DNA of 64,000 nucleotides from Verrucomicrobiota bacterium (lineage in GTDB: Bacteria > Verrucomicrobiota > Verrucomicrobiia > Chthoniobacterales > UBA10450). A program made the translations under genes and the position numbers. The notes beneath the pieces are model-generated. The model had not been told where the DNA came from and did no database searches. It was given only the letters and a program-made list of their open reading frames with translations. Shown in pieces: positions 4,701-47,587 of this stretch. The stretch is from positions 12,920 through 76,919 of the forward strand of contig QHNH01000023.1 in the NCBI GenBank assembly GCA_003218375.1, in the 5' to 3' direction. How positions within the stretch are numbered: position 1 is the stretch's first letter; the number at the start of each line of letters is the position of its first letter.

Positions 4701-4704
4701 AAAC

Positions 4705-4764
4705 AGACAGGATTAACTGGATTCCAGAACTCCTTAATCCTGCTTAATCCTGTTAATCCTGTCT
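4705..4764. repeat. Inverted repeat with AATCCTGTTAATCCTGTC arms
   Basis: Perfect 13-base arms AGACAGGATTAAC (4705-4717) and GTTAATCCTGTCT (4752-4764) around a centre that repeats TTAATCCTG. It sits between the converging moaD and yajQ genes and could terminate both; the design resembles dispersed intergenic repeats more than a classic terminator. Confidence 0.7.
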
Positions 4765-4770
4765 CGTCCC

Positions 4771-5256: not shown

Positions 5257-5312
5257 GATGCGATTTTAGATTTTCAATTTTGGATTTTCGATTTCTGACG
5301 AACCCTGAGCCA

Positions 5313-14561: not shown

Positions 14562-16988
14562 TCAGCTTTGCGCGAGCGCGATGGTCGGATCGAGGCGAGC
14601 CGCGCGCCGTGCTGGTAGATAACAAGCAACCAGCGCCACGAAGAGGAGCAACAACGGAATTGCGACGAACGTCGCTGGATCGGTGGCGGTCACTCCGAAA
14701 AGCAAGTTGCCGATCACGCGGGTGAGAGCGAACGCGCCGGCCAGTCCGGCGACAACACCAATCGCGGCCAGCGTCATTCCCTGCCTAACGACTAGTCCGA
14801 GCACATCACTTCTCTGGGCACCGAGCGCCATGCGAATGCCGATTTCCTGCGTGCGCTGCGTGACCGAATAAGCCATCACGCCGTAAATGCCGAGCGCGGC
14901 GAGGAGCAAGGCGGCTCCGGCAAAAACCGCAAAGAGCTGCATCGACACGCGCCGCGTGCCTAACGAGTTCGCGACGACATCGTCCATCGTCCGGACGTTG
15001 TAGATTGGCTGGTCCTTGTCGAGCGCCTGCACTTCGCGCCGCAAGGTGGTGGCGAAGGCGGCCGGGTCGCCGGCGGTTCGAATCACCAGCCCCATTAAAT
15101 TCCACCGACCCTGGGCGTTCGGCACGTAGATTTGTGCGCCCCCCTCTCCAGTCAGAGAACCGGTCTTCGTGTCGCCGACGACCCCGACGATTTCGCGCAT
15201 GAATTTTTCGTCGCGCCAGATGGAAAGGCGTTTGCCGATCGCTTCCGTGGCCGAACCGAAATGACGTTTGGCGATGGTCTCATTGATGATTACCACCTTC
15301 GGTGCGTCAGTATTGTCGCGAAGCTCAAAGATGCGTCCGGAAAGCAACGGAATTTGCAGGGCGCGAAAATAATCGCCTGTGATGCTGGCGAACATCGCGT
15401 CCCTGTTTTCGTCCACCGTGAGCGGCCGGCCTTCCGGAATAAATCCGCGTCCGATCGCATAACCACTCGCGTTGAGCGGGAGATTGATGCTGCCTCCAAC
15501 CGCTTTCACGCCGGGCGCAACGTCAAGCCGCTCTTTCAGCCGGCGGAAAAACTCCTCAAACTGCGGATAGTCATATTTCGGGTAGGGCAACGCCAGAGTG
15601 GCGACGAGGACATTGTGGGCATTGAAGCCCGGCCTCACCTCCTGGAGACGGACGAAACTCTTGATGAGCAATCCAGCGCCAACCAGCAGCATGAGCGAGA
15701 GAGCGACTTCGCCGATCAAGAGCAGGCTGCGCGCGCTCGTTCGGCGATGTCCTTCGGCGCTGCGTCCGCCCTCCTTCAGCGCGCTCGTCACGTCGAGCTT
15801 CGACGCTTGAAGCGCCGGGACGATACCGAAGAGAATTCCAGTGAGTGCGGAGACCCCGAGAGCAAACGTCAGGACGCGATAATCGATCCCGATCTGTTCG
15901 AGCCGCGGTGCGCCTTCGGGCAACATCGACATCAGCAGATCGGTTAACCAAATACTGAGGACGAGTCCCGCAATCCCGCCAATCGCCGAGAGCAAAATAC
16001 TTTCCGTCAGCATCTGCCGCAAAACACGCGTGCGGCTCGCCCCCATCGCGGCTCGGATGGCAATTTCCTTTTGCCGCGCGGCACTCCGCGCGAGGAGAAG
16101 GGTCGCTACGTTCGCGCAGGCGATTAGGAGCACCAATCCGACGGCGCCAAGGAGCGCGAGAAGGGATGGTTTCACCTCCCGAACGAGGCGTTCGTGGAGC
16201 GTCCAAAGCGAAACGTCCCAGCCTTTGTTCGTCTCGTGAAACTGCTTGTCGAGCTGCGCGTTGATGGCGCTCACGCGAGCCTGCGCTTGCTTCATATCGA
16301 CGTTGGAATTGAGACGGGCGATCGCCGACCACGCGCGGTTATCGCGCGGCTCTTCTGAGAGATTGACCGCGCTGTTTACCCAAATCTGGGTTTGCTCCGG
16401 GTATTCAAACCCCGGGGGCATCACGCCAATAACCGTGAGAGGCCTTGACTTCATCTGGACCACTCTCCCGATGATGGCCGGGTCGGATCCGTAGCGGCGC
16501 TTCCACAAGCCATGGCTGATTATGGCGACGGTGCCCCGGCCGCCGGCGAATGTCGCTGGTTTGTCGTCTTCGGGAACGAACGCTCGGCCGAGAACAGGCT
16601 GGACACCGAGCACAGAAAAGAACCCGGTCGTCACGCCTGCGCGGGGCACGGCTTCCGGTTCCCCACCGTCGGCATCGAGGTTGGCGTTCCCGGTCCAGTA
16701 GGCCGCGGTGCTCGCGAAGAGATCGGTTTGTTGCGACCAATCGGTGAAATCGAGATACGAGATGTTGCTCTCGGTGATGCCGGCCGCCGGATTTTTTCCT
16801 TCGAAGTAGATGATGCGTTCCGCGTCCGGAAACGGCAGCGGCCGGAGGAGAACGCCGTTCACCAGACTGAAGATCGCGGTATTCGCGCCGATCCCGAGAC
16901 CGAGCGCGATCACGGCAATGGCGGTAAAGCCTTTGTGCTTGAGAAGCATCCGCGCGCCGAACCGAATGTCCTGAAGAAGCGTGTCCAT
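14562..16988 (-). CDS. ADOP-type ABC permease C (MacB/FtsX family)
   Basis: An 808-residue double MacB/FtsX permease. N-terminal TM and motif [16 protein letters not shown], first FtsX region with [30 protein letters not shown], last FtsX region with [13 protein letters not shown]. The C-terminus is [17 protein letters not shown], different from the ALRYE ending shared by A, B and E, so it belongs to a separate subgroup with an altered tail. The serine hydrolase gene starts 6 bases downstream, a sign of cotranscription. Two GCCTAACGA 9-mers lie inside it. Confidence 0.93.
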
Positions 16989-17129: not shown

Positions 17130-19586
17130 TCATCCGTGGCCGAGCGCGATCATCGGGTCGGCGCGGGTGGCACGCAGGGCTGGAATGTAACTGGCGAAGA
17201 GCGAAACCGCGATCAGCGCGAGCGTTACCGTGAGAAACGTCATTGGATCAAAAGCGCCGACGTTGAAGAGCAACGCTTGTAAAGCGCGGCTGCTCAGCAT
17301 TCCCAGCAACAGACCGGCCGCAGTGCCGAGCAGGACCAGCTTTGCGGCGCGCGCGATAACGAGCCGCAGCACGGCGCCACGTTGCGCGCCCAACGCCATT
17401 CTAACCCCCATCTCGTGCGTCCGCTGCACAACCAGAAATGACATGACGCCGTAAATACCCACGGACGCCAGCACCAACGCGACCGCCGCAAAGACGCCAA
17501 TCAACACGACCGAGAGACGCCGCGGCGCGATCGAATCAGCGGCGACTTGCTCCAGTGTCCGCACGTTGGCGGCCGGAAGATCGGGATCGAGGCGGCTGAT
17601 CTCACGGCGAATCGCCGCGGTCAGCGACCGCGGATCCTGCGCGCTCCGCACCGCCAGGATCATGCCCCGATACGGCGATTGATTGTGGGGGTAGTAGTAT
17701 TCCGGCTTCGGATCAAGATCGAGCCCGCGATGCCGCATATCGCCCACGACACCGACGATCGTAATCCATTTTGCATCCGGCTTGCGCGGATCGCTAAAGG
17801 TAATGCGCTTGCCAACCGCCTCCTGGTTCGGAAACCATTTTTTCGCGAAGGTATTGTTGACGACGACCACGCCCGGGCCGTCGAACTGGTCGCCCTCGTT
17901 AAAGACGCGCCCCTGCAAGAGCGGGACCTTGAGGACTGAAAAATACTCCGGGGTAACATTTCGAATCTCTTCATCAGGAAAAATCTTCTCCGCCATATGA
18001 TCGCGACCTTCGATGGCGAACGAGCTGTCGCTGTTTGTCCCGCTCAAAGGCAGGATGGAAGTGAATGCAGCCGCTTCGACGCCCGGAAGCGCTTTGATCC
18101 GCCGGGTGGCTTCCGCATAAAAATCGGCGACCGGTTTGCCACGCGGGTATTTCAAGACCGGGAGCGCTACTTCCATGGTGAGCACGTTCCTCGATTCGAA
18201 ACCCGGATGGACGCTCTGGAGGCGGACAAAACTTTTCAGCAACAGACTGGCGCTAACGAGGAGGACAAGAGCGAGCGCCACTTCAGCGATGACCAGGGCA
18301 TTGCGGAGACGGTTGCTCCGGACCCCGCTGGTCGAACCGCGTCCACCTTCCTTTAACGCTTCGGTTAATTCCGGTTTGCCGCTGGCCAGCGCCGGAATGA
18401 GACCGATCACGATGCCGGTGACGACGGCAGTCCCGAGAGTCACGAGAAGAACGCTCAGGTCCAGATTGACTTCGGCCAGACGCGGCACCGTCTGAGTGCC
18501 GATCGAGCGCAACAAATCCAGGCCCCAGATGGCCAGGACGACACCGCCCAAAGCGCCGGCGATCGCGAGAAGAATACTTTCCGAAAGCATCTGGCGCACG
18601 AGCTGCATCCGCCCCGCGCCCAACGCGAGACGAATGGCGAACTCGCGTTCCCGCGCTCCAGACCGGGCCAGCAGCATCGTGGTCAGGTTCGCGCAAGCGA
18701 TCAGCAGAACCATCCCGACTGCACCCAGCAAAATCATCAAAGCCGGGCGCATTCCGCCGATGACCAGATCGTGCAGCGGATAAATGGTGGCGCCGAACTT
18801 TGTCGAGGGCTCGTAGTTGTCCGGAAAGAGCGGATGCCAGTTGGCCACGATCGTGTTCGCCTCGGCCTGGGCCTGCGCGACGGTCACGCCCGATTTCAAT
18901 CGGCCAATCACTCCGTAACTGCGAGAGCCGCGCGATTCGAGTTCATTCTTGGTGAAGGCAATCGGCTTCCACATATTAACGCGCTCGGCGAACGTCCCGC
19001 CCTGGACCCCGAACAGCGGCAGGGGAAACTCGAATTGCGCGGGCATGATCCCAACGACCGTGACGCTGCGGCCATTGACCGAAACCTGCGTCCCGACCAG
19101 TTGCGGATCGGAATTGAAACGGCGCCGCCAGAGACGCTCGCTAATAATGACGACCCCATCATTGCCTTCGCCAAACTCGCTGTCGTTAAAGACGCGGCCC
19201 TTGATTGGCGGCACGCCTAGAAGCGGAAATAAACTTGGAGTAACGACCGCGCCCTGAATCCTCTCGGGCATGTCGCCGCCGGTGAGGTTAAAATCCGCGA
19301 AGTTGAAAGCGGCGATGCGCTCGTAACTGCGCGTCTGCTTTTCCCAATCGAGATATTCCGGCACTGAGACCGGAATTTGGTCGAGACCCTGGGCGCTGAA
19401 TTTCTCGAAAAGCAGAACAAGATTTTCCGGCGCCTTGAACGGCAACGGGCGAATAAGCAGCGCGTTGACCAGGCTGAAGACCGCGGTGTTCGCTGCGATC
19501 GCAAGTGCGATCGTGATGATGGCGACAGCCGTAAAGCCGGGAGTTTTAAGGAGACTACGAAATGCGAGACGAATGGATTGAATCAT
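17130..19586 (-). CDS. ADOP-type ABC permease D (MacB/FtsX family)
   Basis: An 818-residue double MacB/FtsX permease. The ATG at 19586 (MIQSIRLAFRSLLKTPGF) is used; the 28 residues upstream in the longer frame come from the AATGACGAA repeat. It has the usual IITIALAIAANTAVFSLVNALL start (with AIAAN where others have GIGAN), central LLIACANLTTMLLARSGARE motif, and ends PALRATRADPMIALGHG, again unlike the ALRYE tails. Needs a separate ATPase in trans. Paralogue of its neighbours on both sides. Confidence 0.93.
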   Translation of the reverse strand: MIQSIRLAFRSLLKTPGFTAVAIITIALAIAANTAVFSLVNALLIRPLPFKAPENLVLLFEKFSAQGLDQIPVSVPEYLDWEKQTRSYERIAAFNFADFNLTGGDMPERIQGAVVTPSLFPLLGVPPIKGRVFNDSEFGEGNDGVVIISERLWRRRFNSDPQLVGTQVSVNGRSVTVVGIMPAQFEFPLPLFGVQGGTFAERVNMWKPIAFTKNELESRGSRSYGVIGRLKSGVTVAQAQAEANTIVANWHPLFPDNYEPSTKFGATIYPLHDLVIGGMRPALMILLGAVGMVLLIACANLTTMLLARSGAREREFAIRLALGAGRMQLVRQMLSESILLAIAGALGGVVLAIWGLDLLRSIGTQTVPRLAEVNLDLSVLLVTLGTAVVTGIVIGLIPALASGKPELTEALKEGGRGSTSGVRSNRLRNALVIAEVALALVLLVSASLLLKSFVRLQSVHPGFESRNVLTMEVALPVLKYPRGKPVADFYAEATRRIKALPGVEAAAFTSILPLSGTNSDSSFAIEGRDHMAEKIFPDEEIRNVTPEYFSVLKVPLLQGRVFNEGDQFDGPGVVVVNNTFAKKWFPNQEAVGKRITFSDPRKPDAKWITIVGVVGDMRHRGLDLDPKPEYYYPHNQSPYRGMILAVRSAQDPRSLTAAIRREISRLDPDLPAANVRTLEQVAADSIAPRRLSVVLIGVFAAVALVLASVGIYGVMSFLVVQRTHEMGVRMALGAQRGAVLRLVIARAAKLVLLGTAAGLLLGMLSSRALQALLFNVGAFDPMTFLTVTLALIAVSLFASYIPALRATRADPMIALGHG

Positions 19587-27679: not shown

Positions 27680-28074
27680 CAGTTAACTGATGAACCGCGT
27701 TTCCCGCGCCCTGTCAATGAGACAGGTGCGGACTCGTGAATTTCCGACTATGCCAGTCGAAGGCATGAAATTGCATCGCCCCCCAGACCTGATCGGGCTG
27801 GATGGCATCCAAAGTAGTCAGATCGACCATGAAGGCCGCCGCGATCCCGCGAGGGGTTAGTCCTATACCGCCAGACTTTTTCTCGTCGTACATTCGCAGG
27901 AATTCGGGACGTTCCTTCAGAAGACTGCGCCTCCGTCGGAGTCAACGCTTGATTGCGCTGTCGCACTGAAATTTAGGCGTGCAAACGCCGTGGATTTTGG
28001 ACTTCCCTGATTGTCCTCAATCAGGCAGTCTACCTCTACGCTAACAGCTAATCGAACATTCGGAGATACATACA
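27680..28074. other. Intergenic stretch before the peptide cassette
   Basis: About 395 bases between divergent genes with no convincing ORF. It holds a small CTGTC/GACAG hairpin near 27712-27727 and a perfect 8-base stem with 4-base loop at 28006-28025 (CCTGATTG/CAATCAGG) about 50 bases upstream of the peptide start, which could be an attenuator or operator. Base composition shifts here from GC-rich to clearly more mixed. Confidence 0.5.
28006..28025. promoter_or_regulatory. Inverted repeat upstream of the peptide gene
   Basis: CCTGATTG TCCT CAATCAGG, a perfect 8-base-pair stem without a T-run. Position between a presumed promoter and the ribosome site (CGGAGA at about 28056-28061) suggests an operator or leader hairpin. 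Function is inference. Confidence 0.4.
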
Positions 28075-28287
28075 ATGAAACGCAAAACTAAACTATCTAA
28101 AGTGCTCAAAACAGAAGTGCAATTTGTCAGCAGCAAAACTGGAAAGGAACTTGGAAAATTTGTCGCCGAGGGCGCGCACGATCTCGGTGACCCTACTAAA
28201 ATTCTTAAGCTCATGGACTTGCTCAATCTGCCCAAAGGCACGACAGCCAAGATAGTAACATTGGGCACAACGAGCATCGTTCGTTAG
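28075..28287 (+). CDS. Small lysine-rich peptide, candidate precursor
   Basis: A 70-residue peptide that I do not recognise, with a plausible ribosome site (GGAGA) 13 bases upstream. The N-terminal half is basic (KRKTKLSKVLKTEV), the middle holds KELGKFVAEGAHDLGD, and the C-terminus is Gly/Thr/Val-rich (PKGTTAKIVTLGTTSIVR). No signal peptide, no Cys. The diiron-oxidase-like gene follows 31 bases downstream on the same strand, so the two are probably one operon. It could be a leader-plus-core RiPP precursor, or simply a small structural protein; the sequence alone does not decide. Confidence 0.6.
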   Translation: MKRKTKLSKVLKTEVQFVSSKTGKELGKFVAEGAHDLGDPTKILKLMDLLNLPKGTTAKIVTLGTTSIVR

Positions 28288-28318
28288 ACTCGACGGTTGC
28301 TCAGCATGGCGCGAGTTC

Positions 28319-29941
28319 ATGACTGCACCGGCATCGACGTCCAACTCGTCCTCGTTGCGATTGCGGGATTCCGTTGATATCTCGCTGCGGGACGGAAACT
28401 GCGTAATCGGGTTTAGCCTCTGGGAAATAACTCTCCCATTGCGTTGGGTGAAAAAACATCTTCGTGTTCAGGACCTTCTCCAGCGCCGCGTCGTCCTTGC
28501 GGATCCTGGAAGCGACCCCTTCCCGGAAGTTCGATCACTCTTGCAATTATTGTCTACTCAAGGATGCATCGCCGTTGAGCCAATCCCGGACGTTTTTCAA
28601 CTGCCAGAAATGAAAGCCGCCTTTAGGTCCTTGGCGTCAAGTTGGTATGGAGTTTATTATCGTCACCCAGTTTGGGGAAAACTACGAACAGGCCGGCTCT
28701 CGCGGCGCGGTCTCCGCGCCTGGGTTGTTTACAACTACCATCTCTCGCGTTCGGCTGGGGCGACGGCCGCACGATGCGCGAGTCGAATGCCGACGGAGAA
28801 ACTTCGCCATTTATTTCAACGCAATGTCCTTGAAGAATTTTCACACTGCCAGGATTATTATTTCGTTAATGACCCGCGAGTCCAAGTCGAAGCTAACGAT
28901 TTGAAGAATTGTGTTCAATCCTCTGCCAGCCTTGCCTTCGATCAACACATGCTGCGAACAGCCGAGACTGATTGGCTTGCTCATATTTTGGTCTGCCTGT
29001 TTCAAGAGTGTACCAGCGCTTTCTACTCTGATTGCAAAGACTTCTACGGTGCCGTAGAGGCCCGATACAAGCTGCCCGGATTCTTCCGCGGATGGTTAGC
29101 TCATATTGAGCTAGATTTGGACTACGATCATTCCGGATTCTTCGATGATGCTCTTCGGGATATTGGAGGCATCCCTCGAGCGGAAGTAGCGGCCTCTTTG
29201 CGATCTTTTTGGTTCACCTTCGATTTCTTGCTGGACGCCTTGGACGAAATCGAGGCAGAAGGCACCTCGAACGAGGACGCACCCATGCGGCTGCCAGTCT
29301 CTAGGGGCACACTTGATTCAAAGGCGACGGCGCTCCTTCTGAAACATGAGTTTTTGCGACCGATCGTCCTCTGCCCGCGAACAGCCTTCGACCTGCAGCG
29401 CAGCTTGGCGGCAAGCGGCGTCAATTTGAAGGCGGGCACCTGGCGAGGCGGACTCGGAATTCTGCATCAGGATCTGGGCTTCCTCATTTGGGACCTCACG
29501 AAGTCGGTCTATTTGTCTCTAAGCTACTCAAGCCAGCAGGACTGCATTATCTGTCTTGGCAGGATCTCCGAGCGCGCTTTTCGGGGGTTGAAAGAATTGC
29601 GTGACACGCCGTCTTTGCCCGCCACAGCTTATGCATTCGCGATCGCTAATTTCATACGGGAAATGGCGCCGCAGCCATCGAAGTTTTTGTTCATTCTGGA
29701 CCACTTTCTTAACGTCCTCGCAGCCACTTTCTCGGGTTCTACGCGGTCGTTCGTCGATCTCACTACAGCGATTCTAACGAACTTCAATAGGTCAGTAATT
29801 AGGGACTTTCTGGAGCGATGGGAGCTTGATCTTCGCGATGTAGATCGGCTTTCCACCGCTGTACTACAGTTCAACGAGTTGTATTATCGTTGGCTGAAGC
29901 GGAGCAGCGACAGTTGGTCGCGTGATCCTTTTGCAGCCTAA
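28319..29941 (+). CDS. Heme-oxygenase-like diiron oxidase (HDO) domain protein with N-terminal extension
   Basis: A 540-residue protein. Residues about 105-310 fit the heme-oxygenase-like/TENA-PqqC fold: NVLEEFSHCQDYY gives E173xxH176, FQECTSAF gives E230, and WLAHIELDLDYDHS gives H262, D266 and H271, the set of carboxylate and histidine ligands seen in HDO iron enzymes such as UndA or CADD. Residues 15-90 (LRDGNCVIGFSLWEI to LLSTQGCIAVEP) resemble a small winged-helix domain of the kind that binds RiPP leaders, but this is weak. The last 200 residues are unassigned. Probably oxidises or cleaves a C-H or C-C bond in an amino acid or peptide substrate. Confidence 0.65.
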   Translation: MTAPASTSNSSSLRLRDSVDISLRDGNCVIGFSLWEITLPLRWVKKHLRVQDLLQRRVVLADPGSDPFPEVRSLLQLLSTQGCIAVEPIPDVFQLPEMKAAFRSLASSWYGVYYRHPVWGKLRTGRLSRRGLRAWVVYNYHLSRSAGATAARCASRMPTEKLRHLFQRNVLEEFSHCQDYYFVNDPRVQVEANDLKNCVQSSASLAFDQHMLRTAETDWLAHILVCLFQECTSAFYSDCKDFYGAVEARYKLPGFFRGWLAHIELDLDYDHSGFFDDALRDIGGIPRAEVAASLRSFWFTFDFLLDALDEIEAEGTSNEDAPMRLPVSRGTLDSKATALLLKHEFLRPIVLCPRTAFDLQRSLAASGVNLKAGTWRGGLGILHQDLGFLIWDLTKSVYLSLSYSSQQDCIICLGRISERAFRGLKELRDTPSLPATAYAFAIANFIREMAPQPSKFLFILDHFLNVLAATFSGSTRSFVDLTTAILTNFNRSVIRDFLERWELDLRDVDRLSTAVLQFNELYYRWLKRSSDSWSRDPFAA

Positions 29942-29944
29942 ACT

Positions 29945-30931
29945 CTACCTTCGATCGCTTTCCGCGCAACAGAAGAGGTCGCCAAACTCGGCCATGGCGG
30001 CGGCGTTAAGCAGGCGGGAACGATACCATCGTGCATAGCGAAGGGCGAGGCTTGTCAGATCTTGAGTCTGTTGCTCCCATTTCCCAAAAGTTCGCTCGCC
30101 AAGCGTGGCGAGACGAAGAATTGCATCATTCAAATAGCCTTTATTCAAATTAACAAATCGCAACCAGACTCTATGCTTTTCGCGTTGCAACTGGATTGCT
30201 TTAATCCGACGTAACTCAGTGAAGAGCAGGAAAGGCAAAGGTCCAATACCCGCCTTGCCCCTAACACATGACTCCAAGGCCAATCCAAAACGATGGCATA
30301 TTTGAAAGAGAAATACCGCTGCCGCCGCTGAATCAGAAAGGATTTCTAACGCGAACCTTAACGATAGGATGTCTGCCCGCAGTTCTTCCATGTATATCAA
30401 TGGCCAACAGGTATTTCCATTAGGTCGAAAGTAGCCTTTCGCGTATTTGAACGAAATCGGCATGCCAACATTGTGCCCGCCCTCATGGCAATGATACTCG
30501 TTTGATGCAGCGTTTGGTATGTCTCCGATCGATTGCTCAATCTGTTGAAAGTGATGCTTACCAAATAGGTTTGCTAGAAATTGCCGACGGCGCTGCCACA
30601 GAGCCTGCAGCTTTGTTAGGTCAATGATATCAACGTCAAATCCACGCGTGGAGGGCCGGGGTTCGAACGACTCTCGGTAGTACAATGCATCGTTTTCTTT
30701 AGCAAACGCACCGGTCCTCGCCTGCACGTCAGCGGATCGGATGGCGATCGCTGAATCCCCCCAATATAAGGGATGCGACGCCAAGGCCGAATTGATGGAC
30801 TCGCAATCGATCATGCTTCTCGCTAATGGATGCCACACTCCGCTAATGGTGGAAGAAACCGACTTACGTTTACTTTGAACTCGGTATCGTCCAGAGTAAA
30901 CAAACGTGCCTCGTGGCGGGGTACCAAGCAT
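29945..30931 (-). CDS. HEGGH-motif metallopeptidase-like protein
   Basis: A 328-residue protein of unknown family. It has H149-E150-G-G-H153 (in EYHCHEGGHNVG) followed about 30 residues later by YMEELRADILSL, where E182 or E183 could be the third zinc ligand. HExxH plus a downstream EExRAD is reminiscent of M49 dipeptidyl-peptidase III-like enzymes, though those have HExxxH. No signal peptide or TM segment. It converges on the HDO gene with only 3 bases between stops. In this setting it may trim a modified peptide, or it may be a catalytic relic; neither is shown. Confidence 0.5.
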   Translation of the reverse strand: MLGTPPRGTFVYSGRYRVQSKRKSVSSTISGVWHPLARSMIDCESINSALASHPLYWGDSAIAIRSADVQARTGAFAKENDALYYRESFEPRPSTRGFDVDIIDLTKLQALWQRRRQFLANLFGKHHFQQIEQSIGDIPNAASNEYHCHEGGHNVGMPISFKYAKGYFRPNGNTCWPLIYMEELRADILSLRFALEILSDSAAAAVFLFQICHRFGLALESCVRGKAGIGPLPFLLFTELRRIKAIQLQREKHRVWLRFVNLNKGYLNDAILRLATLGERTFGKWEQQTQDLTSLALRYARWYRSRLLNAAAMAEFGDLFCCAESDRR

Positions 30932-31379
30932 ACTGTTTTACGGTAATTATTTTTCTAAACTGCCGTCATAGCTAGCCCCGGCCGTAGATTCTCGTGACGC
31001 TAGAACAATTGTATTATTATGACGGAGCCGTAAGCATCGTTTTGGGATGGTTGTAGCATTCTAGCAGTCGAGATTGCAAACTGTTTGTTCGGGACCAACG
31101 CTCATGGGTCTCAAGCTTGCCGCACGGCACATTTAGCCTCAGAATAGGACCCTTACCGAAATGAGCTTGTTTTGTTCTGCAGAAATTCCCCGCGAGCACG
31201 CGCAAAATCTCGTTGCAAGAAGGGTGAATTGGTTAACATGGTCTAATATCGCTATTAAATGCGTCGATCGTTAGGGCAAAGATATAGACCAGCTCCATCG
31301 GCCAGCCAAAGTTTCGATAGCGGGCTGCGCCCCTTATGACTGTTCTTACTCGTACCGACTTTCAGGGTTAAAGCAATCT
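30932..31379. other. AT-richer intergenic stretch inside the cassette
   Basis: Nearly 450 bases with no supported gene; a 62-codon minus frame at 31017-31205 has no recognisable features. The plus frame leading into the oxygenase gene is open from 31275 without an ATG or GTG, so the oxygenase may once have started further upstream. Composition is noticeably AT-richer than in the core genes. Confidence 0.5.
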
Positions 31380-32012
31380 TTGGTCAAGGGGGTTCTCCGT
31401 CTCGCGGAGTCGCTTTTGTCATTCCCGGTCGGCCCGAGACTCCATTTGTTCACAGGAATGCTCGGCGGACCCTTTACATCCTCCCGGTTGAGCAAGCTGT
31501 TCGCCCTTCTGCGCGCTGGAATTGTTAGGATAACGGGTAGCCCAAAGTGCGCATTAAACGCCCCCGTCTACGCAGCACGAAGCGATGACGGATTTCCTCT
31601 ACACGCAGATGATCTTTTTCTAACGAACCACCTCTGGTTGATTTTCGATAACGTTCCAAAGGGCGAACCCGGTGCCTCATTATTCCTCCCGACTAAGTCG
31701 CTGGCTCAAATTGTCGGAGCGATGACAGAAATGCCGCGCTCGATAAGGTCGCGGCTCCGTAATTTGCTGGAATGCCGCGTCGAACGCGACTCGTTTGACG
31801 AGCTTTACGGTCTCTTGTATTCGCAAGACAATCCATGGGCCAAAGAAAATCTGCGCTGTCTCCGTCGATCCCAATGGCGCATTAAGCTAAATCGGGGGGA
31901 GGGATACCTGCTCGACGATCATCGTTGGCTGCACGGTCGGGAAGCTCTATCAGGGGCCGTCTCAGCATCGCGGTTTCGGAGACTGGTGTTCGGGCGGCTC
32001 CAGTCTATTTGA
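31380..32012 (+). CDS. 2-oxoglutarate/Fe(II) oxygenase-like protein (TauD/clavaminate-synthase type)
   Basis: A 210-residue protein. The facial triad is visible: H75-A-D77 in GFPLHADDLF, and distal H185 in DDHRWLHGRE, with R187 or R198 as the 2-oxoglutarate contact. This matches the clavaminate synthase/TauD-like hydroxylases, many of which hydroxylate free or peptide-bound amino acids. It is short for the family (usually 250-330) and must start at TTG; the frame is open upstream to 31275 without another start, so 5' truncation is possible. Third putative oxidative or proteolytic enzyme of the cassette, with no annotated neighbour downstream except the comM remnant. Confidence 0.65.
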   Translation: MVKGVLRLAESLLSFPVGPRLHLFTGMLGGPFTSSRLSKLFALLRAGIVRITGSPKCALNAPVYAARSDDGFPLHADDLFLTNHLWLIFDNVPKGEPGASLFLPTKSLAQIVGAMTEMPRSIRSRLRNLLECRVERDSFDELYGLLYSQDNPWAKENLRCLRRSQWRIKLNRGEGYLLDDHRWLHGREALSGAVSASRFRRLVFGRLQSI

Positions 32013-32080
32013 GCAAATAACCGCAGGAGCTTTCGGAGGGCCGAAATCGCTCCCTCGAGTTGGTTATATAGCTCGTGGCA

Positions 32081-32237
32081 CTACATCCAAAGCGTCCGGT
32101 CGAAGGTGCGGTATTGGATGGGTTCGCTGACGTGTTCGGGGGTGATGGAGTCGGAGAGGGCAAGGTCGGCGACGGTGCGGGAGACTTTCAGGATGCGGTC
32201 GTAGGCGCGAGCGCTCAGGTTTAGTTCGGTCATGACG
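32081..32237 (-). pseudogene. comM 3'-end remnant, copy 1
   Basis: The minus strand encodes [19 protein letters not shown], then ADLA and ITPEHVSE and [10 protein letters not shown], nearly identical to the last 50 residues of the intact comM at 45897-47432. About nine bases in ten match over 150 bases. No upstream part of the gene is present. Together with 43517-43610 it brackets accessory DNA and may mark insertion endpoints or a duplication. Confidence 0.85.
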
Positions 32238-32375: not shown

Positions 32376-33995
32376 ATGGCTACCTACACCCGTAACAACG
32401 CCTGGAACAAAGGCGGCAATCTCACTAACCCGGATCTCCTCTGGTACGCGAAAGGCGTCGGAAAAATGATGAGCCGGGCCCTCAACGATCCAGCAAGCTG
32501 GTGGTTTTATGCCGCCATCCACGGCGAATACGTCACCCCAGCAAACATCCAACCGGCGTTTCCCGGTTGGAAGTTTATCAAGGCGCCGCCCACAGTTCCC
32601 ACGTCCCCTCTTCCAACCAAAGCGGCCCAGGACCTCTACTGGAATCAATGCCAGCACCAAAGCTGGTTTTTCCCCCCATGGCACCGCGGATACCTGATGG
32701 CGCTCGAAGCGCAACTGCGCCAGGACATCGTTAGCCTCGGAGGCCCCGCGACCTGGGCATTGCCTTATTGGAATTACTTCGGGGGCACCAACGGAAGCCA
32801 ATACCAAATGCCGCCCGCCTTCGCGGCCAAGAAACTTCCGGATAACAGTCCCAATCCACTCTTCGTCAACATGCGTTACGGGCCCGACGGAAATGGTAAT
32901 ATTTTTATTCCGACGCCGGCGGGAGAGGCCGCACATCCGGGGGATCCGAATTTCTCCCGTGGCCAGGTCAACGCGAATTACATGAGCAATGACCTCTATA
33001 CGGGCCATGATCAGGTGACAAAACTGCCGGGCTTCGGCGGTCCCGAAACCCTATTCCACCATGGCGGTGGAACCTCGGGAAACTGGGAAGGCAATCCGCA
33101 TAACCTCGTGCACGTATATGTCGGATACTACGGCGCCGTCACCGCGCCTCTCTACGGCCTGATGTCGGACCCCGGAACCGCGGGCCTGGATCCCATCTTT
33201 TATCTGCATCATGCCAACATCGACCGGATGTGGGCGATCTGGAATGCGAACGGCAACGCCAATCCCACCAAGTCGGGCTGGTTGAAAGGCCCGACGACGC
33301 GGAAGTTTGTCATGCCCGGGACAAACGGGCAGCCGTGGTATTACACGCCGGATCAGATGAAGGACCTGGCTAAACTCAATTACAGCTACCAGGAACTGAA
33401 GTCTCCCCCAGCGCCTAAGGCCGCCGGGCTGCCGAAAAGGCTAGCGCTCCTCGGTGCGAAAGATGCCGCTGCGGCGGCGAAGAAGGCACCCGCCACGCCG
33501 GCCAAACCGAAAGTGACAGAACTCCTCGGGGCCAGCGCTCGTCCGCTGAAGATCTCAGGGCGGGTGAGCAAAGCTGCGGTGAAACTTGATGCCGGCGTGC
33601 GCCGGAAAACGACCCGGAGCCTTGCCATGGCTGCGAAGACGGCCGCGCCGGACAATGTTTACATCAAGGTGGAAAACGTCCGCGGGACTTTCGACGCGAC
33701 CGTTCTCAGCGTGTATCTCGACCTGCCGGAAGGGGCCAAGCCTGGCGAGAGCCGCCAATATCTGGCCGGAAATATCGCCCTCTTCGGTCTGCGCCGGGCC
33801 AGCATGAAGGATGGGCAACACGCCGGCGAAGGCCTGACGTTTATCCTCGACGCGACGCCGGTGATCGATCAGTTGCACCTGAAGAATGAATTCGATGTCG
33901 AGTCGCTTCAGGTCAGTGTTATCCCGGCCGACCCGCTGCCCGAAAATGCCGACATCACCGTCGGGCGGATCAGCATTTACCGCGAGGGATTTTGA
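32376..33995 (+). CDS. Tyrosinase/polyphenol oxidase with C-terminal lid domain
   Basis: A 539-residue type 3 copper oxidase oxidising phenols to o-quinones. CuA ligands: H49 (AAIHGEY), H94 (NQCQHQSW) and H103 (PPWHRGY); C92-x-H94 could form the Cys-His thioether bridge known from fungal and plant enzymes. CuB ligands: H242 and H246 (NPHNLVH) and H279 (FYLHHANIDRMW). A low-complexity Ala/Lys/Pro linker (about 350-420) leads to a C-terminal beta domain (about 425-539) like the KFDV lid of plant polyphenol oxidases. No signal peptide. The next genes encode a DUF2182 protein and a free copy of the lid domain. Confidence 0.92.
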   Translation: MATYTRNNAWNKGGNLTNPDLLWYAKGVGKMMSRALNDPASWWFYAAIHGEYVTPANIQPAFPGWKFIKAPPTVPTSPLPTKAAQDLYWNQCQHQSWFFPPWHRGYLMALEAQLRQDIVSLGGPATWALPYWNYFGGTNGSQYQMPPAFAAKKLPDNSPNPLFVNMRYGPDGNGNIFIPTPAGEAAHPGDPNFSRGQVNANYMSNDLYTGHDQVTKLPGFGGPETLFHHGGGTSGNWEGNPHNLVHVYVGYYGAVTAPLYGLMSDPGTAGLDPIFYLHHANIDRMWAIWNANGNANPTKSGWLKGPTTRKFVMPGTNGQPWYYTPDQMKDLAKLNYSYQELKSPPAPKAAGLPKRLALLGAKDAAAAAKKAPATPAKPKVTELLGASARPLKISGRVSKAAVKLDAGVRRKTTRSLAMAAKTAAPDNVYIKVENVRGTFDATVLSVYLDLPEGAKPGESRQYLAGNIALFGLRRASMKDGQHAGEGLTFILDATPVIDQLHLKNEFDVESLQVSVIPADPLPENADITVGRISIYREGF

Positions 33996-34018
33996 TCGGG
34001 TAAGCGCGAGGCCGCTCG

Positions 34019-34777
34019 ATGATCTACAATGCCGAGGATTGGGCGCGGCTCCGAAACGCCGTGTTCGCCGTCAGTCTGGTGGCGTGGGTTGTCATCCTGC
34101 TCGAGCCGCGGGCTTCGGCCTGTTGCGCGGTCAACGCGGCGGGCGTTTCATGGACTGTCCTGCTGGCAGCGCATCCGCCCGCTTCCTTGGCGGGCAACTG
34201 GGCGTTGATGCTGATCGCGATGATGGCGCCCATGCTCGTCGCGCCAATTTATCATATCCGCATCAGCAGCTTCGCGCGCCGCCGGGCGCGCTCCACGATG
34301 CTGTTCGCCGCCGGCTATGGCACCGTGTGGATGGTTGCCGGTATCGTGATTGTCGCGGTGGAACTGATAGCGGCTTGGCGGATGCCCGGGTCCTATTTGC
34401 CGGCAACGATCGTTGGTCTCACCGCCGTCCTCTGGCAGGCGTCGCCGTTCAAGCAACGCTGCCTGAACCGGTGTCATAGTCACCGACCTCTCGCCGCCTT
34501 TGGGTTCGCCGCCGACCTCGATGTTTTTCGCTTTGGTTTGGAACAGGGACTCTGGTGCACCGCTTCATGTTGGGCCGCGATGTTATTCCCAATGCTTTTG
34601 CCCGAGGCGCATTTCACCGCGATGGCGGCCGTCGCCATTCTCATGTTTTGCGAACGGCTTGATCCGCCCAGGGAGCCACGGTGGCGATGGCGCGGTTTCG
34701 GAACGGCGGCACGAAGCCTGAGTCTTCGCCTGCGCGGTCCGCAACGTGACCCCGCGCCGTTGACGGCGGTCAGTTAG
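34019..34777 (+). CDS. DUF2182 integral membrane protein
   Basis: A 252-residue protein with about six TM helices. DUF2182 signatures are MMAPMLVAPIYHIR near residue 65-80, FAAGYGTVWMVAG, WQASPFKQRCLNRCH (with the conserved Cys/His pair), and the Trp/Cys/Met-rich helix GLWCTASCWAAMLFPML. The family is annotated as predicted metal-binding membrane proteins. Lying 23 bases after the tyrosinase gene, it could supply copper to that enzyme; this is inference from position and the Met/Cys/His content. Confidence 0.85.
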   Translation: MIYNAEDWARLRNAVFAVSLVAWVVILLEPRASACCAVNAAGVSWTVLLAAHPPASLAGNWALMLIAMMAPMLVAPIYHIRISSFARRRARSTMLFAAGYGTVWMVAGIVIVAVELIAAWRMPGSYLPATIVGLTAVLWQASPFKQRCLNRCHSHRPLAAFGFAADLDVFRFGLEQGLWCTASCWAAMLFPMLLPEAHFTAMAAVAILMFCERLDPPREPRWRWRGFGTAARSLSLRLRGPQRDPAPLTAVS

Positions 34778-34794
34778 CGCTGAATCTGCCAGGG

Positions 34795-35292
34795 ATGACG
34801 TTACCCAAGGAAGCGGAGCTGCTCGGCACGAATTCCGGCGAGCTTGAACTCAAGGGCTCCGGTGCATCCACCGTCGTGAAACTGTCGACAGACGGTCAAC
34901 GCAGAGTTGCCGCGCTGGTCGGCGGACCTTCCGCCGAGTCATCCGGCGGTGTTTACCTCGGTCTTGAGAAAGTCCGCGGAACTTTCGACGCGGCCGTGCT
35001 GAACACATACATCAATCTCCCCGAAGACGCGCGTCCGGCCGATCATCGTGATCTCATGACTGAAAGCGTCGGTCTCTACGGCCTGCGAAGGGCCAGCACC
35101 CTCCAGGGTGAAAACAAAAGCCCTGGCCTGACGTTCCTGCTCGATATTACTCAGATCCTGACCGAGCTTCTCACCTCCAAGTCACTCAATTCCGAAGAAA
35201 TCCGCGTCACTATTGTGCCAGATCGCCCGCTTCCAGATTCGATAACTATCGTTGTCGGACGAGTCAGCATTTTCACGACGTCGTCGGCCTGA
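34795..35292 (+). CDS. Free-standing paralogue of the tyrosinase C-terminal lid domain
   Basis: A 165-residue protein whose residues about 50-160 align closely with the C-terminal domain of the tyrosinase two genes upstream: VRGTFDA(T/A)VL, then YGLRRAS or FGLRRAS, LTF(I/L)LD, and VGR(I/V)SI. The first 45 residues (PKEAELLGTNSGELELKG) resemble the tyrosinase linker. It therefore arose by duplication of the lid-coding segment. It may act as a separate inhibitor or copper chaperone (caddie) for tyrosinase; the sequence does not prove this. Starts 17 bases after the DUF2182 gene; same operon. Confidence 0.8.
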   Translation: MTLPKEAELLGTNSGELELKGSGASTVVKLSTDGQRRVAALVGGPSAESSGGVYLGLEKVRGTFDAAVLNTYINLPEDARPADHRDLMTESVGLYGLRRASTLQGENKSPGLTFLLDITQILTELLTSKSLNSEEIRVTIVPDRPLPDSITIVVGRVSIFTTSSA

Positions 35293-36547: not shown

Positions 36548-37003
36548 ATGCCAAAGGAAATAACATATTCGTTGTTGGCAGCTTATGGGCTTTTAACCAT
36601 CTTCCTGTTTCTTGAGTTGCTCAGTTCTCGTCGGCTGTTGCGCTTTCTAATTTCTTTAGGAGCGATGGCGCTAAGTGCGCTGGCACTTTTTGTGACGACG
36701 GGCTTTCCACGGGTGCACACGACTTTCGGAGGCGGATCGCCGATCTTGGGTATCGGGATCGTTACTTTATGCACTGCCCTAGGAATCCTCGCACAATACA
36801 TTTTTTACCTGAAGAAATCCTTTTCATGGCTCAAGATGCTCAGCCCCTTAGTCATCTCGCCAATTGTGGTTCTTCCCCTCTTAGCTTCTATTCAGAAGTC
36901 CGGAGATTTGGATACGTTGCAACTTATTTCATTCGCGTTTCTGGCATTTCAGAACGGATTCTTTTGGCGCAGTGTGATGGAAAATGCGAAACCGGGCCCT
37001 TAG
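36548..37003 (+). CDS. Small polytopic membrane protein upstream of the caspase-like gene
   Basis: A 151-residue protein with about five hydrophobic segments (near 8-25, 30-53, 66-88, 94-114 and 123-143) and short loops; no known family recognised. Its last 20 bases overlap the start of the caspase-like gene, so translation of the two is coupled. In toxin-like or signalling caspase systems a membrane partner is a common effector or anchor, but no homology supports a specific role. Codon use is less GC-biased than in the core genes. Confidence 0.65.
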   Translation: MPKEITYSLLAAYGLLTIFLFLELLSSRRLLRFLISLGAMALSALALFVTTGFPRVHTTFGGGSPILGIGIVTLCTALGILAQYIFYLKKSFSWLKMLSPLVISPIVVLPLLASIQKSGDLDTLQLISFAFLAFQNGFFWRSVMENAKPGP

Positions 37004-38576
37004 AAACGTTGGCTGGCTAGCGCTTACGTATTTGGTCGCCTTGCGTCCGGCAATAGCCGGGGATCGGCCCTCAGTGCCAAAAGAATACGATCGGTTCTTC
37101 GTTCAATATAAAGATGATAGAAGTCTTCCGGAACGGATTTTAAACGAGCTTGGTTTCTCGTTACAGGACGTCGGCCGAAGCTATGCGCTGGTCGCGGGTA
37201 TCGGGAGCTACCCTAAAATGGATGCCCTGCATACTAAACTCCCTCCGGCCTACGAGGATATCAACCACATGGCTAAATACTTCAAAGAAGTCGAATATTT
37301 TGATGAAATCGTTGTTCTCAAAGATTCCGACATGAATTATTCAAACTTAGCATTCTTTCTCCAAAGCTATTTTCCTGAACAATTGCGGAGCCATCCAAAA
37401 TCGCGGTTCATCTTTGCTTACAGCGGACATGGGATGAAGGATCCTGAAAGCAGCAAAGGATATCTTCTTACGAGTGATGCAGAAACACTGACCGACAAGC
37501 GACATGGACTTGATCTCGAAATAGTGCGCACACTCATGGATGGCATTATTCGCGACGGGTATCATACTCTCGCCTTGATAAACGCATGCCATAGCGGTGC
37601 ATTCCTTCGACGTGTTTCATTCGGAGGTAAGCCCCTTAAACCGAAGAAGCCGGGCGCACACGTCCTCGTTTGCGGAGGAGTGGATGAGCTTGGTTATCAT
37701 ATCCCGTCGGTCGGAACGGGTAGTGTGTTTTTCGAAAAAATCCTTGCGGGTCTCGGTGGGATTGCTGATACCTACCCCAAAGAGACGGACGGTGACGGAA
37801 TGATCACTTTTGATGAGCTCGCAACGTATGTCATCCAAGAGGTGCGTTTCTCTACAGACTCGGACGCAAATCCAATTGCTGGCGATATTTCTCCTCACGG
37901 AAGTGCAGGTTCCATCTTCTTTTTGAATCGAGAGCACTTTGCAAAGGAAGGTGCCATTTCCAATTGGAAGCCGGCCAAAGGGACCACATTTGGGGAGAAT
38001 TCGCCGACTGATCAGACTCTCATTGCTCCGAATACCGAACTCCAAGACATCTTCAGTCTTTCGGAAAGAGACCGTCCCGCGAGTGAGTTGCGTTCAATAC
38101 TTAGTGGCTTTCAGATTACTCTTCAACGCGCGGGCTTTTATGAAGGTTCAGCAGATGGAATTCCGGGACCCAAGACTAAGGCTGCGATTCTTCAATGGCA
38201 GAAAACGTATCGCCTTTCCGAGACTGGAGATCTTACTGAGGAAACCACCAGGAGTTTAAAAGAGGCGGATCTTGAACCGCCGGCTAGCCTTACTGAGGAA
38301 ACCACTGCGAGTTCGAAACAGGTGGACCCTGGACCGCCGGCTAACAAGAATACGACTGCCCGCAAAGAACCGGTTAGGCGTTCCCCGCAACCTTCACCGC
38401 CTCCCAGTGATTCAGACGTGTCTATTCCTTGGGGAAAAGCTCATCCACGAATCAACAAAGCCGTCATTAGCCCATACGACAGCAATGCAGTAGTAGACGC
38501 GAGTTCAAGTGATAGAGGAGACATTTTGTATTGCCCGACCACCCACAAGCCGTTTAGAAATCCTTGGAAGCGCTGA
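36984..38576 (+). CDS. Caspase-like (C14) peptidase with peptidoglycan-binding domain
   Basis: A 530-residue protein with a short signal-like N-terminus. The caspase fold spans about 65-310: catalytic His149 in FAYSGHGMKD and Cys202 in LINACHSGAF, plus an EF-hand-like loop (TDGDGMITFDEL, 268-279) seen in many bacterial metacaspase relatives. Residues about 375-428 form a PG_binding_1-type domain (LQRAGFYEGSADGIPGPKTKAA). After a Pro/Ser/Thr linker, the C-terminal 45 residues (SPYDSNAVVD, then YCPTTHKPFRNP) look like a short repeat motif found at the ends of many Verrucomicrobial proteins. Exported role at the cell wall is likely; target unknown. Confidence 0.88.
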   Translation: MRNRALRNVGWLALTYLVALRPAIAGDRPSVPKEYDRFFVQYKDDRSLPERILNELGFSLQDVGRSYALVAGIGSYPKMDALHTKLPPAYEDINHMAKYFKEVEYFDEIVVLKDSDMNYSNLAFFLQSYFPEQLRSHPKSRFIFAYSGHGMKDPESSKGYLLTSDAETLTDKRHGLDLEIVRTLMDGIIRDGYHTLALINACHSGAFLRRVSFGGKPLKPKKPGAHVLVCGGVDELGYHIPSVGTGSVFFEKILAGLGGIADTYPKETDGDGMITFDELATYVIQEVRFSTDSDANPIAGDISPHGSAGSIFFLNREHFAKEGAISNWKPAKGTTFGENSPTDQTLIAPNTELQDIFSLSERDRPASELRSILSGFQITLQRAGFYEGSADGIPGPKTKAAILQWQKTYRLSETGDLTEETTRSLKEADLEPPASLTEETTASSKQVDPGPPANKNTTARKEPVRRSPQPSPPPSDSDVSIPWGKAHPRINKAVISPYDSNAVVDASSSDRGDILYCPTTHKPFRNPWKR

Positions 38577-39660: not shown

Positions 39661-40130
39661 TCAAGAAGTCTTCGCGTGCTTTAGGATGGTAACGAAAATC
39701 GCGGTTAGCTCTTCACATTCTTGCCGCAGAGGTGCGAGCTTTTCCACGCTGACAACCCCAGATTCCACGAGCAGTTCCAGCCAGTAGGCGCTTTGACTCG
39801 CTGCTTTCCCAGCAGCTCGCCCGCTACCTCGCGGGTTTTACCATCTATGTCGCGGTTACCCAACACGCTCCATTCTTCAATCTCGCGCAGCGAATCGCCG
39901 CATTTCGCGATGAACTCCGCTTTGCTCCGCGCGCGAAACGCTTCTCGATAGTTAGCGCCGATCGAAGTTCCGGACCGGAGCAATTGCTTCCCAAGCACCT
40001 GCGCCTCCGTCGTCTTCGGAAGCGCGTAAAACATGCGCACAACGCGAAGCGCGAAAACCTTCGTCCGATCGCGCAGATCATTTTGAAAGCCCAGCCGTTG
40101 CTTCGCATCCGTTACGGCTTCCTTCCGCAT
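39661..40130 (-). pseudogene. Four-helix-bundle (23S IVP-like) gene broken by an 80-bp insertion
   Basis: The minus strand encodes a typical IVP/four-helix-bundle protein (VLGKQLLRSGTSIGANYREA, then ARSKAEFIAKCGDSLREIEE). After REIEE an 80-base insert (39793-39872) shifts the frame; beyond it the original ending is still readable (AYWLELLVESGVVSVEKLAP to VTILKHAKTS and stop at 39661-39663). Without the insert the product would be about 130 residues. The longer frame visible to 39705 is only the insert-shifted readthrough. By family these small proteins are found in mobile 23S rRNA intervening sequences and elsewhere; function unknown. Confidence 0.85.
39793..39872. mobile_element. 80-bp double-hairpin insertion in the IVP gene
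   Basis: Contains stems GCTGCT/AGCAGC (39800-39816) and CCCGC/GCGGG (39820-39835). Its removal restores the conserved reading frame of the host gene, so it is a recent insertion of a REP-like miniature element. Confidence 0.75.
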
Positions 40131-42941: not shown

Positions 42942-43516
42942 GGCTGGCGAGAATACCGGGTCGACGGTCTGGCTCAAGTCTGGTTTGGTCGAATAACGGC
43001 CGGGCAGTTAGCGGACAGTTGCGCCATAGCAAGCCTGCCAATCAAAAGCGCGCTCGACGCAAACATCAAGTCGATACCCAGGAGTGGGCTTGTGAACTTG
43101 ACCGCTTAAAGCGGTCGATTTCCAAACCGGCGCGCTGATATGCATCGTAAGCGGATTACGATGGATGCAGAATGGATAAGTGTTCTCCGAGATCGCGCGT
43201 CATCCGGACATCGGGCTCATCTAGTGTTTGGACAACGGCATTCCGGAGAGGCCGCTCATTTCGGCTCGAAACTGATTGGGCGATCAACGCGTGAACTTCG
43301 CCGATGGATCTGGCTGGTGCTTGGTGAGTGTCGGCCTAAGCGATGGCACAAGGCAATGCTAGCTCTTGAACGATATACGTGATTCACGTATAGCAGCGCA
43401 AAAGCGAGCCGCCGTTCTTAAGCCGGACGTGCGCGCTGTTTGGACGTATATCATCGCAAGAACGAACCGCGGTTCGCGAGCGGCGCAGAGCGCGAAGAAA
43501 CATCTTCAGCCGTCAG
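42942..43516. other. Long intergenic stretch with palindrome P6
   Basis: About 575 bases with short spurious frames only and no recognised gene. It contains palindrome P6 and leads into the comM remnant. It may be decayed coding DNA. Confidence 0.5.
43372..43394. repeat. 23-bp palindrome P6
   Basis: GATATACGTGA T TCACGTATAGC, one mismatch in the left arm. Confidence 0.85.
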
Positions 43517-43610
43517 ACCCATAGAGTGCGGTCGAACGTGCAGTATTGAATGGCTTCGCTGACGTGTTCGGGAGTGATGGAGTCGGATTTCGCGAGGTCG
43601 GCGATGGTGC
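43517..43610 (-). pseudogene. comM 3'-end remnant, copy 2
   Basis: Over 94 bases the strand repeats the last part of the intact comM gene (compare 45900-45992), roughly 85 percent identical, including the run TGGCTTCGCTGACGTGTTCG. It breaks off abruptly 10 bases before the stop codon of the beta-helix gene. Less similar to intact comM than the 32-kb copy. Confidence 0.8.
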
Positions 43611-45896: not shown

Positions 45897-47432
45897 TCAA
45901 ACCCAGAGCGTCCGGTCGAAGGTGCGATATTGGATGGCTTCGCTGACGTGTTCGGGGGTGATGGCGTCGACTTGGGCGAGATCGGCGATGGTGCGGGAGA
46001 CTTTCAGGATTCGGTCGTAAGCGCGAGCGCTCAGGTTTAATTCAGTCATCGCGACGCGGATCAGTTCCTGGGATTCGTCGCTGAGTTTGCAGTGCTGTTT
46101 GATCTGGCGCGGACCCATTCGGGCGTTGCAGTTTACTTTCGCGTCGGAACGAAAACGGCCGTGTTGTTTTTCGCGGGCGCGCTGGACGCGATCGCGGATC
46201 GCAGCGGATGGTTCTTCAGTGCGCGTGCTGGAAATGTCGCGGTATTCGACGGCGGGAACCTCGATGTGGAGATCGATGCGATCGAGGAGCGGGCCGGAGA
46301 TGCGCTGGCGATAACGCTGCACTTGGACCGGACCGCAGCGGCATTCGCGCTTCAGATCGCCGAAGTATCCGCACGGACATGGGTTCATCGCGGCGACGAG
46401 CATGAACTCGGATGGGAACGTGACGCTGCCGGCGGCGCGCGAGACGGTGACCTTTCCATCCTCCAATGGCTGCCGCATGACTTCGAGCGTCGAGCGTTTG
46501 AACTCCGGTAGTTCATCGAGAAAGAGAACGCCGTGATGGGCGAGGCTCACTTCACCGGGCTGGGGAATGGCGGAGCCGCCGAGCAAACCGACATCGGAAA
46601 TGGTGTGATGCGGCGAGCGAAACGGCCGGGTGGACACGAATGCCTCTTCGCCGCTGAGCATTCCCGAGATGCTGTGGATCTTCGTGCTCTCGATCGCTTC
46701 TTCGAGCGACATCGGCGGCATGATGGTGGCAATCCGTTTCGACAACATCGATTTGCCGGAACCGGGCGGACCGATCATGAGCAGGTTGTGTCCGCCGGCG
46801 ACGGCAACCTCGATTGCGCGTTTCACGTGCCCCTGCCCTTTCACGTCGCTGAAATCGACCTCGTAATTTTTGTGGGTGGCGAAGAACGAAGTGAGATCGC
46901 CATAAGTTGGCGCGATGAGCGATTCCCCGCGGACGAACTCGAAGGTCTGGCGCAGATTGTGGACGCCGTAGACCGTGATTCCTTCCACCATCGCGGCCTC
47001 ATGCGCGTTCGTGGCCGGAACGAAAATGGCCTCTTTCTTTTGCCGCCGCGCTTCCAGCGCCACGGGTAAGACGCCTTTCACCGGACGCACCCCGCCATCC
47101 AGGGCCAGCTCGCCAACGAAGCTAAATTTCTGGAACGGCGCCTGTTCCAGTTCCTCGGCGACGGCGATCATGCCAAGCGCGATAGGAAGATCGAAACTCG
47201 GGCCTTCTTTCTTTATGTCGGCTGGCGCGAGATTGATCGTGGTCCGTCCCCGGGGCCAGTAATAGCCGCTGTTACTGATCGCGGTCGTGACGCGATCGCG
47301 GCTTTCTTTTACCGCGGCATCGGGCAGGCCAACAATGATGATCTTGGGCTCTCCCCGCGCGCCGTTGACCTCGATCTCCACCTCGTAGGCATCGACTCCA
47401 TAAACAGCAGCGGAGTAAATTTTGGCGAGCAT
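45897..47432 (-). CDS. comM: ComM/YifB-family AAA ATPase (Mg-chelatase-like)
   Basis: A 511-residue helicase-like AAA ATPase with N-terminal Lon-like domain (start at ATG 47432, [18 protein letters not shown]). Motifs: Walker [10 protein letters not shown], Walker [11 protein letters not shown], and the C-terminal Mg-chelatase helix ending ([20 protein letters not shown]). In transformable species ComM is a DNA helicase that promotes branch migration during natural transformation. Its 3' end exists in two further degenerate copies at 43517 and 32081, so this gene is a rearrangement or integration point. The AAA core is intact. Confidence 0.93.
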
Positions 47433-47587
47433 GGGAGGAGCGCCAAAAAACGTGGCAGAAACCTCAGCGCGAGAAAAGATCAATCGGCGGGACGGCACCA
47501 ACGCGGCTATGCGCTCCTCTCACGCCGCCCGCAGGGCGGCGGCTACAGAAGAAGACGATGCGTGGAGCGCTTGCTTAGCCGCCAATT
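47433..47587. other. Intergenic gap with a GGCTACAG-type hairpin
   Basis: The gap between comM and the cytochrome-like pseudogene holds the hairpin described at 47523-47548 and no gene. Confidence 0.5.
47523..47548. repeat. Hairpin repeat (GGCTACAG family)
   Basis: CGCCGCCC GCA GGGCGGCG (8-base stem, 3-base loop) followed by GCTACAG. Same family as at 2128 and 26308. Confidence 0.6.

Follow-up and report, generated by a model that had tools for sequence, protein, structure and literature searches.

Does a small gene lying directly ahead of an HDO-type oxidase gene encode the substrate of that oxidase, and do the neighbouring genes belong with the pair? The question arose from a 64,000-nt stretch of Verrucomicrobiota DNA (hereafter the window; part of contig C8 in a 3.96-Mb genome of 52 contigs), for which a preliminary description had proposed a RiPP-like pathway of four genes encoding a 70-aa peptide, a 540-aa oxidase, an HEGGH metallopeptidase-like protein and a TauD-like 2OG oxygenase. 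The four open reading frames and the 31-nt gap between the 70-aa ORF and the 540-aa gene were present as described (Table 1). Codon statistics trained on the other genes of the window favoured the proposed frame of each, with z scores of ~3-3.7 for the 70-aa ORF, 7-8 for the 540-aa gene, 5.5-5.9 for the 328-aa HEGGH gene and 3.6-4.6 for the 2OG-like ORF. Our best explanation, to which we give a probability of about 0.4, is a two-gene unit of peptide plus oxidase, in which a peptide-modifying HDO would act on the product of the upstream ORF.

Table 1. Features of the islet, with positions in the window and the evidence for each.
Feature	Position	Strand	Evidence or remark
AT-rich islet	27726..32080	.	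Between the ntrC-like promoter side and the comM 3' end copy; congener homology ends at ~27725; GC drop
GGAG, possible ribosome-binding site	28062..28065	+	9 nt ahead of the 70-aa ORF; read from sequence
70-aa basic small ORF, candidate substrate peptide	28075..28287	+	ORF call and codon-frame score; ends ...TTSIVR
540-aa HDO-type protein	28319..29941	+	TENA_THI-4 match, R. etli homologue, MboA-like ligand spacing
N-terminal domain (residues 1-95), candidate peptide-binding winged helix	28319..28603	+	Low-confidence model; weak wHTH/PqqD similarity of the R. etli counterpart
Heme-oxygenase-like oxidase domain (residues 96-310)	28604..29248	+	E173, H176, E230, H262, D266, H271
C-terminal extension (residues 311-540), predicted helical	29249..29938	+	No relatives
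328-aa putative zinc-metalloprotein, HEGGH...EELRAD	29945..30931	-	ORF and motifs; no family match
210-aa TauD-like 2OG oxygenase-like ORF	31380..32012	+	TTG start, HxD and distal H, short N-terminus
comM 3' end copy	32087..32233	-	147 bp, 90% identical to 45903-46049 at the true comM end; closes the islet

The earlier view that the segment carrying these genes is AT-richer than the core genes, and looks acquired, was borne out. The GC content of the islet was 0.49-0.535 (49-54%), compared to ~0.59-0.62 upstream, the third-position GC of its genes was 0.49-0.59, compared to 0.72-0.79 in adjacent core genes, and the islet was absent from all seven congeners searched. In the six congeners that could be read, homology to the window ran through the ntrC-like gene to ~27725, broke off and restarted at the 3' end of comM. 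The content of the ntrC-comM interval was different in each of these six assemblies: one carried ADOP-type permease-like genes, another defence-like genes, and others had genes that resemble those for M20 peptidases and peptidyl-prolyl isomerases (named by inspection). Based on the break points in the congeners, the variable content and the comM 3' copies, we consider that the islet was acquired as a discrete unit and that the site next to comM is a hotspot. The interval looks as if site-specific insertion had occurred there repeatedly, at the 3' end of comM; no integrase was recognised at the comM-side hotspot, and an Rfam search of the islet did not reveal any known RNA.

The hotspot was traced at 32087-32233, 43513-43610 (the latter containing a second, partial copy of the comM 3' end) and 45897-47501 of the window, at 14803-15339 and 18523-19260 of locus L039, and at 4251-5384 of locus L034, where the comM end is joined to foreign sequence. 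Partial comM 3' copies divide blocks of differing acquired genes in this genus. Adjoining the islet, window 32376-35292 encodes a tyrosinase that carries DUF7868 as its C-terminal domain, then a PpoB2-type copper chaperone and then a protein made of DUF7868 alone, and we read this region as a cluster of copper oxidase, chaperone and detached domain. A second AT-rich stretch carries a caspase-domain (Peptidase_C14) protein with a peptidoglycan-binding domain (36984-38576), and a small four-helix-bundle protein of the 23S rRNA-intervening-sequence family is encoded within an acquired block at 39705-40130.

We analyzed the 540-aa protein, to which a complete set of HDO-like ligands had been attributed, and recovered all six residues. 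Pfam TENA_THI-4 (PF03070) matched residues 108-227 above the gathering score (E 2.1e-5), and the best PDB sequence match was PqqC/D (5vrd, 5vrc; E 6e-4). The six-ligand pattern arose by chance in 3 of 20,000 shuffles of this protein and in 13 of 20,000 shuffles of the R. etli homologue described below. Judged by its sequence, the 540-aa protein has the heme-oxygenase-like (TenA/PqqC) fold and the complete E-H-E-H-D-H motif of the HDO superfamily, and it is predicted to bind two metals. The gaps between successive ligands are 3, 54, 32, 4 and 5 residues in the window protein and 3, 53, 32, 4 and 5 in the R. etli protein. The corresponding gaps are 3, 54, 29, 4 and 5 in MboA (E86, H89, E143, H172, D176, H181; PMC13185094) and 10, 53, 30, 4 and 3 at the equivalent positions of FlcD (E181, H191, E244, H274, V278, R281; PMC11363339). 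The comparison indicates that the 540-aa protein is spaced like MboA (ExxH, 54, E, 32, HxxxDxxxxH) and not like FlcD.

A permissive tblastn search of 72,556 plasmids with the 540-aa protein produced one match, on plasmid p42f of Rhizobium etli CFN 42, at E = 1, a value that proves nothing when taken alone and that counts against our best explanation. The matching protein (WP_011428413, 331 aa, annotated as hypothetical) aligned with the window protein across the whole HDO domain in a pairwise blastp (2e-8). The two proteins had a local score of 104, whereas 500 shuffles averaged 31 and none scored as high. All six ligands are kept in the R. etli protein, at E173/H176/E229/H261/D265/H270 compared to E173/H176/E230/H262/D266/H271 in the window. 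A small ORF (WP_166486952, 67 aa, annotated as hypothetical) lies 30 nt before the R. etli HDO gene, with a strong ribosome-binding site, AAGGAGG. The geometry is 70 aa plus 31 nt in the window and 67 aa plus 30 nt in R. etli, so the two-gene unit of a small ORF and an HDO with an N-terminal domain is seen in more than one phylum.

The earlier idea that the 70-aa ORF encodes a peptide precursor gains its chief new support from the recurring position of the small ORF. That support comes from adjacency and recurrence and did not extend to sequence: the 70-aa and 67-aa ORFs had zero detectable similarity and their products are opposite in charge (pI 10.1 in the window and 4.8 in R. etli), and both observations count against our best explanation. 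The C-termini of the two peptides are Arg in the window and Cys-Gly in R. etli. Precursor peptides may diverge to the point of sharing no sequence, and the same applies to unrelated small proteins. By inspection only, the 70-aa sequence resembles a small folded strand-helix-strand protein more than a leader and core.

Homologous loci with a small ORF and an HDO, which it had been suggested to look for in other Verrucomicrobiota, were represented by the R. etli pair; none was found in the Verrucomicrobiota congeners. Order- and phylum-wide genome searches yielded no relatives of the 70-aa ORF, and for the 540-aa protein only chance or generic short matches to the TenA region. Exact-peptide scans of genome contigs and viral contigs did not recover any relatives of the islet proteins. 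Phyla beyond the organism's own were covered by these scans, which catch close relatives, along with plasmid and phage records, and rarity is therefore not established. Pfam, NCBIfam, PHROGs and PADLOC returned zero matches for the 70-aa and 328-aa proteins and thus gave no indication of a known defence system. Those matches to the 70-aa ORF in other genomes that were checked (L051, L053, L055, L056) were rejected as unrelated sequence with no HDO adjoining.

The surroundings of the Rhizobium genes were also inspected. The R. etli pair (L045, 8574-15873) adjoins Z1, PD-(D/E)XK and AIPR genes, an arrangement like that of a restriction or defence module. On a plasmid of Rhizobium sp. T1473, the last 42 codons of an R. 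etli-type HDO gene remain beside an IS66-like fragment, ~3.5 kb from two PqqE/mycofactocin-like radical SAM genes (L048, 1169-1294 and 4813-7307; L047, 9370-9567). A small Lys-rich ORF just upstream of the radical SAM genes is itself a RiPP-like candidate. The proximity of the radical SAM genes lends weak support to our best explanation by guilt by association; because the region is a transposon mosaic, we kept them as partners only as a weak hint.

The N-terminus of the 540-aa protein had been proposed to be a leader-binding winged helix. Both the window and R. etli HDOs have 172 residues ahead of the first ligand compared to 85 in MboA, which means that each carries an extra N-terminal domain of ~87 residues, and to this extent the proposal held. 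The winged helix and the leader binding drew weak hints. An AlphaFold model of the window domain (pLDDT 35-55) has the order strand-strand-strand(-strand)-helix-helix-helix, which is the order that RiPP recognition elements need (PMC12710340), and the R. etli domain gave weak winged-helix matches (best E 0.0026) and a faint match to PqqD (5sxy). Together these are no more than suggestive of leader binding by the N-terminal domain; the models were made without an alignment, and at a mean pLDDT of 38.7 and 33.6 they are too poor to use. Direct alignment of the two N-terminal domains was unstable and revealed no similarity beyond that of shuffles, which counts against our best explanation. The C-terminal 230 residues had no family or PDB match and no similarity to the R. 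etli protein, which ends without such an extension. We rejected the idea that they form a second, degenerate HDO domain, as they have no similarity to the protein's own HDO domain.

The two remaining genes were less readily tied to the pair. The layout is not that of a single operon: the 328-aa gene opposes the 540-aa gene, converging on it with a 3-bp gap, and ~450 bp lie between the 328-aa gene and the 2OG-like gene. The motifs reported for the 328-aa protein were confirmed, HEGGH at residues 149-153 and EELRAD at 182-187, ~29 residues apart, while its assignment as a metallopeptidase-like protein found no family match. We take these motifs to recall the M49 peptidases (dipeptidyl peptidase III) without matching them, HEGGH having five residues compared to six in the HExxxH of the M49 motif pair HExxxH and EExxA(E/D); no Pfam match was obtained even at E 10. 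The best match of the 328-aa protein (G339, E 3.6e-4) was discarded as an ORF antisense to polynucleotide phosphorylase. In the 2OG-like ORF, the iron triad and the C-terminal Arg are present (H75-A-D77, H185, RFRRLVFGR) and several weak partial matches were TauD/TfdA dioxygenases. The motif part of its TauD-like assignment is thus sustained; the C-terminal similarity to Pfam TauD scored 11.9 bits, under the gathering cut-off of 27. The frame runs on upstream (31137-31274 and 31275-31380) across one TAG stop at 31272-31274, 5' of which the codon signal is weak, and this upstream frame could be the decayed 5' end of the gene. No relative of the HEGGH or 2OG-like protein was found in 388 sampled genomes of the same phylum, in plasmids or in viral contigs, and neither gene is on R. 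etli p42f or on the T1473 plasmid. The claim of a four-gene pathway was therefore not upheld, and a shared pathway role of these two proteins is conjecture.

Under our best explanation, a ribosomally made 70-aa peptide would be encoded directly ahead of an oxidase with a heme-oxygenase-like dimetal middle domain. The oxidase would grip the peptide through its N-terminal domain of ~95 residues, and its diiron centre would activate O2, so that a residue near the end of the peptide is desaturated or otherwise oxidised in the presumed product. The HEGGH and 2OG-like proteins would be neighbours with no more than a conjectural link to this two-gene core. The nearest functional precedents for such peptide oxidation are MboA and VarO. 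MboA carries out an iterative (two-fold) desaturation of the C-terminal Arg of a tripeptide to an alkyne, and VarO, ~30% identical to MboA, is stated to have similar substrates (PMC13185094); the desaturated Arg of the RiPP thiovarsolin has been ascribed to VarO (RiPPER paper, PMC6511847). We compared the residues by which MboA contacts the guanidinium group of Arg, together with Tyr82, and the window protein has other residues at the simple-offset positions. This counts against our best explanation, and the C-terminal Arg of the window peptide is not backed as a target by MboA-type contacts. The locus also has neither a transporter nor an immunity gene, and there is no second copy, which likewise counts against it.

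The main rival is that the substrate of the oxidase is a free amino acid, a fatty acid or another small molecule and that the small ORF is unrelated or accessory, for example a stability partner. Most characterised HDOs do have amino- or fatty-acid substrates (review PMC13108848), and both the lack of conservation between the small ORFs of the two loci and the folded appearance of the 70-aa sequence, which was judged by inspection only, fit this rival. The occurrence of the 30-31 nt arrangement in two phyla, the extra N-terminal domain of both proteins and a ligand spacing that is that of the peptide oxidase MboA speak against it, and we regard a small-molecule substrate as possible, if rather unlikely. 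A similarly doubtful standing is given to the broader proposal of a RiPP-like class. Its diiron HDO would bind the peptide through an N-terminal domain of its own and oxidise the product of a small gene 30 nt upstream. Members would be sparse and scattered over phyla far apart, in Verrucomicrobiota-type bacteria and on Rhizobium plasmids, and both the small peptides and the partner genes would differ from site to site.

The other two alternatives concern the islet as a whole. The shared AT-rich insert between the ntrC side and the comM 3' copy suggests that the four genes probably arrived together or at the same place, as a full RiPP-like pathway of peptide, HDO, leader-cutting HEGGH peptidase and 2OG oxygenase would have it; such a pathway is nevertheless improbable, given an HEGGH gene on the opposite strand, a 450-bp gap with possible 5' decay of the 2OG gene, and the failure to find the genes together in R. 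etli or elsewhere among the collections searched. We find it decidedly improbable that the islet is a gene graveyard, formed at a recombination hotspot from unrelated acquisitions that have no joint function and are in part already decaying. The differing cargo of the ntrC-comM interval in each readable congener, the repeated comM 3' ends, and the TTG start and in-frame upstream stop of the 2OG-like ORF are what a graveyard would leave, but the long frames are intact with coding statistics and the small ORF-HDO pair recurs in R. etli. If our best explanation is true, an HDO with its own peptide-holding domain behind a small peptide gene would be a minimal two-gene form of O2-driven peptide modification, and one that is easy to test. 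Characterised HDOs number only about a dozen, and in the sources consulted VarO is the only one named as acting on a peptide of ribosomal origin. A second example, in a cultivable organism, is provided by the R. etli pair.

Comparison with known systems places the window pair among enzymes that each share part of its features. FlcD and SznF are likewise HDOs with an added N-terminal domain, although that domain is a superhelical linker and the ligand spacing of FlcD differs. PqqC and the PqqC-D fusion combine the heme-oxygenase fold with a peptide-derived pathway and a fused PqqD peptide-binding domain, but PqqC is metal-free, whereas six ligands are kept in the window protein, and the order of the fusion is reversed. 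VarO, likened here by description, is a heme-oxygenase-like enzyme of a RiPP pathway; its partners there (YcaO/TfuA, an ATP-grasp ligase, an amidinotransferase) are all absent from the window locus. MboA, the diiron HDO that serves as mangotoxin acetylenase, has the same six ligands at near-identical spacing (29 compared to 32) and a peptide substrate. Its tripeptide is made by ATP-grasp ligases and not ribosomally, unlike the proposed window peptide; it is devoid of the extra N-terminal domain and C-terminal 230 residues of the window protein, and its partner MboB is missing at the window locus. By analogy, MboA and VarO are a functional precedent and not proof. The R. etli HDO, at 331 aa, differs from the window protein in having no C-terminal extension and no HEGGH or 2OG neighbours, and resembles it in the small ORF 30 nt upstream, the N-terminal domain and the matching ligand positions.
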